Both the position numbers and the translations under genes were made by a program. A stretch of 25,543 nt of DNA from positions 1-25,543 of IMG/VR virus record IMGVR_UViG_3300018428_000161; one strand, written 5' to 3'. Below are positions 1,339 through 6,677 of the stretch, one piece after another. The notes beneath the pieces were generated by a model. That model saw only the letters and a list, made by a program, of their open reading frames with translations, was not told the origin of the DNA and did not search any database. Source of the stretch: a virus. Every line of letters starts with the position of its first letter. Position 1 is the first letter of the stretch.

Positions 1339-1367
1339 TTGACATCAGATCAACAATGCCCTATATT
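1339..1367 (+). promoter_or_regulatory. Sigma70-type promoter TTGACA-17-TATATT
   Basis: TTGACA at 1339-1344, a spacer of exactly 17 bases, and TATATT at 1362-1367, one mismatch from the bacterial consensus. The start would be near 1374, leaving a leader of about 24 bases with the AAGGAGA site before the ATG at 1398. The box and leader are nearly the same as those at 2228-2284. It would be read by host RNA polymerase without phage factors, as expected of an early gene. Confidence 0.8.
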
Positions 1368-1397: not shown

Positions 1398-1637
1398 ATG
1401 ACTTACAATTGGATGGTTACGGCTACTAATGCAAAAGGCGATTTCTTTGAGGAGTATTTCGTAGAAGCTAAAGAAGCTGATATTCGTCATAAGCAACTTT
1501 ATAATGAAGTTGATGATCGTGGTCTTTGGAAGTGGGGATCTATTCGTACGACTAATATGGATACAATGCGAGCTGATCTTATCACGGGTATCTTGGGTCA
1601 GTCTCGTGAAGGACAAGTTCCTAATTGTGTAGCATAG
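1398..1637 (+). CDS. Small early-type protein, 79 residues
   Basis: The start is fixed by GAAGGAGATATATC-ATG behind a strong promoter. The sequence begins with a beta-rich stretch (MTYNWMVTATNAKGDFFEEYF) followed by a helix with Lys/Glu pairs (VEAKEADIRHKQLY) and a W-x-W motif near residue 44. No family is recognised. There are no membrane segments. The TAG stop is immediately followed by the 5' strand of the long helix of the candidate RNA at 1638-1781, so the gene and the RNA are probably on one transcript. Confidence 0.7.
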   Translation: MTYNWMVTATNAKGDFFEEYFVEAKEADIRHKQLYNEVDDRGLWKWGSIRTTNMDTMRADLITGILGQSREGQVPNCVA

Positions 1638-1781
1638 GAGACTATTTACCGGATGCGTCCGTGTGGAGGACCCGGCCGGCTAAAAGCACCATTGTTAGTT
1701 TCAATCAATCTAGAGCGGCAACGTCAATAAGGCCGTGCAGGGCGATTGAAGATACTAGGGGCGTATTCGGTAAATAGTCTT
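1638..1781 (+). ncRNA. Candidate structured RNA with a 21-23 bp closing helix
   Basis: Bases 1640-1660 pair without a gap with 1759-1779. These 21 pairs include three G-U pairs (1652/1767, 1655/1764, 1658/1761). A1639-T1780 and G1638-T1781 extend the helix. Inside, 1696-1706 pairs with 1744-1757 (TAGT/ACTA and TTCAATC/GATTGAA, with a 3-base GAT bulge). 1715-1719 can pair with 1732-1736. 1661-1664 can pair with 1686-1689, giving a branched, multi-helix fold. CGGCC at 1673-1677 could instead pair with GGCCG at 1731-1735, a possible pseudoknot. The segment is visibly richer in G+C than its surroundings, the usual mark of a structured RNA in an AT-rich genome. It sits between two small genes, its end touching the RBS (AAGGAG 1783-1788) of the next. 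It could be a stand-alone RNA processed from the transcript or a leader element controlling the gene at 1795. I cannot place it in a known RNA family. The strand is taken from its neighbours. Confidence 0.6.
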
Positions 1782-1794
1782 GAAGGAGATTAAG

Positions 1795-2001
1795 ATGAGA
1801 ACTGTACACTATGTAGGAATGGATTATGCTACCTATCAACGTGCTCGTCGCGTTTGGGGAGGTCCAGCATATTATCACAAGTGGATGGACGATCGTGTTT
1901 GGACTGAGGTTGGTGATAGCGATGTTGTTGTCGTCGGCGATCCTACTCATCGTCAATATGTTTGGGATGCTTCTGCAGTTAGTAAGGAGTATACAGATTG
2001 A
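1795..2001 (+). CDS. Small early-type protein, 68 residues
   Basis: The ATG at 1795 has AAGGAG at 1783-1788, six bases away. The TTG at 1780 in the same frame is rejected as a start because it lies in the RNA helix before this RBS. The product is rich in Tyr, Trp, Arg and Val (YQRARRVWGG, DSDVVVVGDP), probably a compact alpha/beta domain. No family is recognised. The leader is the end of the structured RNA, so translation may respond to how that RNA folds. The gene ends in a TTGA overlap with the next gene. Confidence 0.65.
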   Translation: MRTVHYVGMDYATYQRARRVWGGPAYYHKWMDDRVWTEVGDSDVVVVGDPTHRQYVWDASAVSKEYTD

Positions 2002-5447: not shown

Positions 5448-6677
5448 ATGGAAAATTTTAGAACACATATAACAGAACAAAAAAATACTCATATGACTCA
5501 CATCGAAGATAAGGTTATCTACGGTGGTGTCAAGGGCACACGTCAAGCCATACTCGCTTTGCGAGAGCTTCGTGATATGTTAAGAGGAGTACATGATGGT
5601 AATGTCTCTGTTAAGTGGGATGGTGCCCCTGCTATTTTTGCTGGCACTGATCCTCGCGATGGTAAATTCTTTGTCGCCAAAAAAGGAATCTTTAATAAGA
5701 ATCCTAAAGTCTATAAGTCTAGTGCTGACGTGGACGCTGATACTTCTGGTGATCTGGCTGCTAAGCTTAAACTCGCACTAAAGCATTTGCCTGCTTTGGG
5801 TATTAAAGGTGTGGTACAAGGTGACTTTTTATTTGGTCCAGGTGATATAAAGACTAAGAAAATAAAGGGATCGTCGTATGTTACATTTCATCCTAACACT
5901 ATCGTCTATGCGTTGCCTAGCGAGTCGGCTGGAGCTAAGGCTGTTAAGTCAGCAAAAATTGGAATCGTCTGGCATACAACCTACACTGGTAATTCCTTCG
6001 AGTCAATGCGAGCTTCTTACGGAGTTGACGTCTCCAAGTTTAACACAACCAGAGCTGTGTGGTCGCAAGATGCAATGCTCCGGGATCTAAGCAAAGTTAC
6101 TATGAGTAAAAAGGACACAGAGTATGTTAATGAACTTCTTTCAGAAGCTGGGTTTCTCTTCAACAAAATCGCTGGATCGACTCTTAGGCAGCTCGAGAAT
6201 GAGGAAGAGCTACCGCGCCTCATTGAGCAATTCTATAATAAACATGTCAGAAAAGGAACGCTTATCGGAGATTCAGAACGACATGTATCCAAGCTCATTC
6301 GTTGGATTAGATTACGTTACGCAAAAGAGATTGCCAAGCGCAAAACAGAAAAAGGAAAATCTGGACAAAGAACTAAACTAGATAATATATTATCTTTCTT
6401 TTCAGAAGAAAATAAAAAATCTTTGAAATATATGTTTGACCTTCAAAAAACTATTGTGCTTGCAAAACTTAAACTTATAAATACACTTAATAAACTAGGT
6501 AATGTAGATACATTTGTGAAAACAAGCCGAGGTTACAAAGTAACCGGAGCAGAAGGTTATGTAGCAATTGATAAACTTGGTGGTGAAGCGGTGAAGATTG
6601 TTGATCGTATGGAGTTTTCATACAACAACTTTTCACCAGATATATTAAAAGGATGGGATAAGCCAACGAGGAATTAA
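5448..6677 (+). CDS. DUF6267-like protein with a KxDG nucleotidyltransferase motif and capsid-targeting-like N-terminus
   Basis: This is a 409-residue protein of a family I recognise from T4-like marine phages (DUF6267-like). Residues 53-62 read VSVKWDGAPA. K56-W57-D58-G59 is the motif I pattern of covalent nucleotidyltransferases (DNA/RNA ligases, capping enzymes), where the Lys takes up AMP or GMP. A later GVVQGDFLFGPGD stretch may correspond to motif III. No activity has been shown for this family to my knowledge. The N-terminus MENFRTHITE has I8-x-E10, as in the capsid-targeting peptide of T4 IPIII, which supports the ATG at 5448. Without it, the next in-frame ATG is 5493 (MTHIEDKVIYGG), where the conserved body begins. 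Neither start has a clear RBS. Upstream lies a consensus promoter that would give a leaderless message. Confidence 0.75.
   Translation: MENFRTHITEQKNTHMTHIEDKVIYGGVKGTRQAILALRELRDMLRGVHDGNVSVKWDGAPAIFAGTDPRDGKFFVAKKGIFNKNPKVYKSSADVDADTSGDLAAKLKLALKHLPALGIKGVVQGDFLFGPGDIKTKKIKGSSYVTFHPNTIVYALPSESAGAKAVKSAKIGIVWHTTYTGNSFESMRASYGVDVSKFNTTRAVWSQDAMLRDLSKVTMSKKDTEYVNELLSEAGFLFNKIAGSTLRQLENEEELPRLIEQFYNKHVRKGTLIGDSERHVSKLIRWIRLRYAKEIAKRKTEKGKSGQRTKLDNILSFFSEENKKSLKYMFDLQKTIVLAKLKLINTLNKLGNVDTFVKTSRGYKVTGAEGYVAIDKLGGEAVKIVDRMEFSYNNFSPDILKGWDKPTRN

Follow-up and report, generated by a model that had tools for sequence, protein, structure and literature searches.

Marine T4-like phages carry RNA motifs such as manA and wcaG, and in a different type of phage the phi29 pRNA combines paired 5′ and 3′ ends and a three-way junction with contacts between molecules, in which two different loops join by a few pairs to form a ring. 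The element described here also comes from marine T4-like phages, but it matched neither manA nor wcaG at any threshold, and its likeness to pRNA lies in the paired ends, the three-way junction and the proposed loop contacts, with no Rfam match. Like the element, GOLLD and ROOL are structured RNAs of phages and prophages that often lie near tRNAs and have self-complementary kissing loops, proposed for the element and supported in GOLLD by covariation of adjacent loop bases; they are, however, several hundred nucleotides long and form 14-mers and 8-mers (PMC12286853), whereas the RNAs of the present family span about 86–220 nt. The same covariation argument has been applied to loop L9.3 of OLE and loop L21a of GOLLD, and cryo-EM shows the contact (PMC12286853). 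The OLE L9.3 tetranucleotide switches between the palindromes GGCC, GAUC and AGCU (PMC12286853) and that of the present family between GGCC, GAUC, GUAC, GCGC and CCGG, although OLE is a large extremophile RNA with protein partners and its model does not match the element. In size and setting the element resembles rnaC (139 nt) and rnaD (119 nt) of T4, which lie in the tRNA cluster of a T4-type phage (annotated in AF158101) and whose function is not known (PMC9697503). The fold of T4 rnaC is a different one, which includes a tRNA-like T-arm, and identity with rnaC or rnaD was rejected: with filters off, our model R1 reached no more than 10.1 bits across the tRNA region of T4 versus 147.6 bits for the element.

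The window, a 25,543-nt stretch of an uncultured virus (IMG/VR record IMGVR_UViG_3300018428_000161, positions 1 to 25,543), is a fragment of a T4-like phage with T4 RNase H, PhoH, DUF932, DUF6267 and RNR. The features around the element are listed in Table 1. Its closing stem runs for 21 pairs without a break, with G-U at three positions (G1652-U1767, G1655-U1764 and U1658-G1761), and is lengthened to 23 bp by G1638-U1781 and A1639-U1780. When G-U pairs were allowed and the span was limited to 250 nt, this was the longest stem in the window, followed by one of 16 pairs, and the longest stems in 20 random order-1 windows had 14–17. The region 1630–1790 folds at −58.5 kcal/mol (z = −4.29), a value equalled by none of 200 shuffles, and the GC content of the element is 0.51 compared with 0.365 for the window. 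The first-pass annotation had described this stem with its two outer pairs, a GC-rich block in an AT-rich genome and a position abutting the ribosome-binding site of the next gene, and the analysis bore it out on each of these points. The inner helix that it had drawn between 1696–1706 and 1744–1757, with a GAU bulge at 1751–1753, is likewise present and is supported by homologues. A pseudoknot proposed between 1673–1677 and 1731–1735 did not hold up: the two strands are complementary in the window, but the corresponding positions are paired in only 62% of cases in relatives and show no two-sided change.

Table 1. Coordinates of the structured RNA element, its parts and the flanking genes in the window.
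Feature	Position	Strand	Remarks
Sigma-70-like promoter TTGACA-17-TATATT of the RNA-containing operon	1339..1367	+	11/12 matches
Upstream ORF, 79 aa, without known family	1398..1637	+	Stop codon 1635–1637, 2 nt 5′ of the element
Structured RNA element	1640..1779	+	Scores 147.6 bits with R1; two optional outer pairs lengthen it to 1638–1781
P1 closing helix, 5′ arm	1640..1660	+	Two-sided changes in 10/20 pairs; 97% of cells paired
P2 hairpin	1661..1689	+	Outer pairs 1661–1664/1686–1689, inner pairs 1667–1668/1680–1681; conserved RG/RAAA internal loop
P2 loop tetranucleotide GGCC, self-complementary	1674..1677	+	Proposed kissing-loop dimer contact
Optional P3 hairpin site	1690..1694	+	P3 absent in the window genome
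P4, 5′ strand, variable third arm	1695..1706	+	Supported by homologues
P5 hairpin GCGGC-AACGUCAAUAAG-GCCGU	1715..1736	+	GCGGC/GCAGC covariation; conserved 12-nt loop, its conservation partly forced by the search pattern
P4, 3′ strand, with conserved GAU internal loop (1751–1753)	1744..1758	+	
P1 closing helix, 3′ arm	1759..1779	+	AAGGAG here in 33/91 distinct elements, in 29 just 5′ of a start codon
Shine-Dalgarno AAGGAG of the downstream gene	1783..1788	+	Outside P1 here, 3 nt past the element end
Downstream ORF, 68 aa (MRTVHYVGMDYATYQRARRVWGG...), without known family	1795..2001	+	Relatives with and without the RNA

The window also contains two near-identical early promoters with their 5′ leaders (TTGACA-17-TATATT...TAATGAAGGAGATATA) at 1339–1395 and 2228–2282, which share 79% identity over 61 bases and head successive operons.

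The first relatives, near-copies of the window and one diverged copy, L041/L042 (75% identity), came from loci found via the DUF932 protein. A conserved-core pattern search of IMG/VR returned 106 stretches, 100 of which scored at least 85 bits with model R1, and homologues were placed on about 100 contigs of uncultured viruses. Five matches to the first pattern (L089, L111, L112, L115 and L166) were discarded as chance hits, their surrounding sequence being unlike the element; R1 found no match in L089, L112, L115 or L166. The first-pass annotation had been unable to assign a family, and Rfam 15 agreed: the window gave no match at gathering thresholds and region 1600–1810 none at E ≤ 10, with manA, wcaG, GOLLD, ROOL, group I introns and riboswitches all unmatched by the element, and across 13 homologous loci only tRNA and tmRNA were matched. 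Words resembling the R and S segments of group I introns were set aside as a mere resemblance. Among 50,697 phage records of INPHARED no match was found, and the four pattern matches among 84,980 prokaryote species of GTDB all failed R1, although the exact core pattern used there could miss a diverged copy. The literature search found no described relative. The element is the first to be recognised from an RNA family that is so far unreported and known from uncultured viruses only, and this adds a well-supported family missing from Rfam and from cultured-phage collections.

To assess conservation of the fold, 25 members were aligned with MAFFT from sequence only (alignment A1, not fitted to structure) and scored against the proposed structure. 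Pairing was intact in 97.9% of 1117 pair cells, and two-sided changes occurred at 22 of 47 pairs, including three of the four outer pairs of P2; none of 500 shuffles did as well on any measure, and folds slid along the alignment were only 37–42% paired. The P1 column pair 10/152, for instance, takes CG, AU, UA and GC. Parsimony on a tree built without P1 counted 44 two-sided pair swaps in this helix, a number that whole-arm exchange by recombination could inflate relative to truly independent changes. Two wobble pairs, U-G at columns 19/143 and G-U at columns 94/115, are invariant in all 25 members and G-U intermediates also occur, which places the constraint on the RNA. Taken together, the comparative data show that the element is a real folded RNA under selection, and the earlier proposal of a multi-helix structure kept at the RNA level stands, with covarying and retained helices in homologues. 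A long inverted repeat in single copy could also be expected of a DNA-level feature such as a cruciform, a replication origin or a protein-binding palindrome, but invariant G-U pairs and G-U intermediates are sensible only in RNA, and the element lies, where checked, on the coding strand of its neighbouring genes; this explanation is largely refuted and has become extremely improbable.

In the window, an alternative local pairing was observed at 1695–1713 (element positions 56–74), where UUAGUUU and AAACUAG (56–62/68–74) could form a hairpin in place of the long-range P4. This hairpin is paired in 95% of cells and shows no covariation, and L037 keeps just a short hairpin of this type in that arm. 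The sequence would allow a two-state switch between the local hairpin and P4 as a possibility.

The P2 loop varies in a way that helices within one molecule do not account for. In A1 the loop tetranucleotide (columns 35–38) is self-complementary in 25 of 25 members, with AU, GC, CG or UA as the inner pair, a pattern seen in 0 of 500 shuffles; the tetranucleotides found are GAUC, GGCC, GUAC, GCGC, CCGG and UCGG. In the window, GGCC lies inside the 8-nt palindrome CCGGCCGG (1672–1679). All 24 distinct P2 loops of the wider locus set are self-complementary as well (22 strict palindromes and two that need G-U), with the caveat that one search pattern fixed CCGG in the loop while the others left it open; a further listed loop, at L056/L057, was a false positive and is outside the 24. 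On a tree built without P2 the tetranucleotide switched 12 times, 11 of them between strict palindromes. Adjacent loop bases cannot pair within one loop, so that the partner must be a second molecule, and the covariation of the P2 loop thus suggests a kissing-loop homodimer; a self-complementary, covarying loop is the same type of evidence on which homodimeric contacts are recognised in PMC12286853 (section 8). Members of the main class have only one self-complementary loop, where a phi29-type pRNA would have two different interlocking loops and bind portal and ATPase. The shortened third arms of two members also end in palindromic loops (GAGCUC in L217 and CUGCAG in L218). If dimerisation is borne out, the element would widen the known range of self-assembling phage RNAs from GOLLD and ROOL down to a short RNA of 90–220 nt that is easily made and tested.

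Comparison across the family revealed a modular build, in which P1 (19–20 bp) and the P2 hairpin form a constant chassis and the remainder differs among members. About 100 members have a conserved domain as their third arm, about 40 have something different there, and in L234 and L245 the arm is nearly absent. Members with the P4–P5 domain occur with or without the optional P3, which in relatives carries GAAA, UUCG or other loops or 40-nt insertions. L037, L217 and L221 have just a plain short hairpin there, L192, L193–L209 and L207 have arms of other types, and L308 and L310 combine third arms of unequal length with a diverged P2 whose loop is GGCC. With its third arms swapped and its chassis fixed, the family is a natural experiment on RNA domain exchange. 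As a speculative generalisation, to which we give little weight, the family may be a general phage RNA platform in which the dimerising chassis presents interchangeable third arms as cargo swapped between phages, the arm setting the target (e.g., a host protein or defence factor) and the chassis setting dimer geometry and stability.

The genomic setting of the RNA bears on its function. An R1 scan of 47 records gave a match in 40, and 39 of these, including contigs of 135–275 kb, held a single copy; L095 has two different copies in tandem, and in L100 a second, weaker R1 match lies beside the first. In 13 distinct elements a tRNA-Thr, -Pro, -Asn or -Trp begins 4–13 nt 3′ of the RNA, and five have their own promoter directly 5′ of it (L088, L093, L095, L117 and L179). 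Terminators follow the RNA in some loci, and elsewhere it lies between small genes of several unrelated families. Positions flush behind a stop codon also occur. A single copy beside tRNAs recalls the long-unexplained stable RNAs of T4.

This variety disfavours the riboswitch-like leader considered in the first-pass annotation, since tRNAs, terminators and several unrelated genes, not one class of downstream gene, follow the RNA, and many relatives of the downstream gene do not have it in front of them. Among the HYVG-gene loci, some of which end short upstream, just 25 of 61 have an R1 match, several with an intervening gene. Deletion variants are also found: in L278 and others nothing is left of P1 but its Shine-Dalgarno end, the RNA being gone, and in L273 and L277 just a collapsed P1 hairpin remains. 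Because the downstream gene has relatives both with the RNA and without it, and because these deletion variants exist, the RNA is not a leader that this gene requires.

Presence at different sites in different phages and loss in relatives could also be the signature of a selfish or ribozyme-like insertion that lands harmlessly between genes, as short intergenic mobile repeats do. Such an insertion agrees poorly with a single copy, with covariation across the fold and with the lack of a known ribozyme match, and no exact empty target site or target duplication was found in the loci examined; we consider it very unlikely.

Of the functions first proposed, a stable RNA released from a transcript, or a protein-binding RNA, would fit these observations best. 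We lean, with a little better than even confidence, towards a gene, found in uncultured marine T4-like phages, for a small structured non-coding RNA that would be a stand-alone, processed, kissing-loop dimer acting in trans. The RNA would be made either as part of an early mRNA or a tRNA precursor or from a promoter of its own, and may be excised from the longer transcript by RNase III-type cleavage at P1 and by RNase P at an adjacent tRNA. Two copies would then pair via the P2 loop, and the dimer would act in trans, its most likely partner being a protein or RNP of host or phage. Cleavage at P1 could also be an end in itself, with P1 serving as an RNase III site at which the upstream message is parted from the message or tRNA that follows, and the interior as scaffolding. 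The length of P1, always 19–20 bp with invariant ends, and its position always at joints of transcript units, beside tRNAs or between cistrons, are in keeping with such a processing or insulating element; there is, however, generally one copy per genome despite many joints, and neither the strongly conserved unpaired positions nor the palindromic loop would be needed, which makes this role improbable.

When folded, P1 would bring the stop codon of the upstream gene close to the ribosome-binding site of the next one, which would let the RNA sit between cistrons without harm. The same geometry is also usable for translational coupling, the main rival to a trans-acting RNA gene: in a cis-acting intercistronic element P1 would hide the downstream ribosome-binding site until opened by a ribosome terminating upstream, or by a ligand or protein on the core. 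In support of coupling, AAGGAG in the 3′ arm of P1 is followed by a start codon within 12 nt in 29 distinct elements versus 4 without such a start, and in most such elements the stop codon of the gene before ends between −9 and +2 relative to the element. In the window, however, P1 does not include the Shine-Dalgarno sequence. The RNA also occurs before tRNAs and terminators, which offer nothing to translate; the genes downstream are unrelated; many HYVG-gene loci, as noted above, have no R1 match; and for a ligand switch a helix of 20 bp is very stable. A cis-acting role is accordingly a doubtful explanation, and a trans-acting small RNA remains our preferred reading.

Other structured RNAs were noted in these phages. 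A second conserved one (L187 ~6200–6355, L121 10067, L093 7552, L133 5844 and L195 10945, all +, as well as L156 and others) ends ...CACTGGTACCG..CCCAGTCGGTTG.TGCATACG..AAATAAGGGGAGRGGCACTGCAGAAAGYCYCTCCC and is sometimes located immediately 5′ of the element. Pairing is retained in its last stem, which is variable, and this RNA has no Rfam match. A third structured block, GGTAAGG...GAGATAGGCAGCCGGGGCGGGGGGCGTGYTTATCACC, also without an Rfam match, lies upstream of the element in L097 (8930–9005, +), L186 (3010–3095, +), L202 and L222. In addition, alphaproteobacterial or permuted tmRNA genes (RF01849, RF04321) are phage-borne in L088 (9451–9796, +) and L156 (6599–6949, −), a hint of an alphaproteobacterial host.
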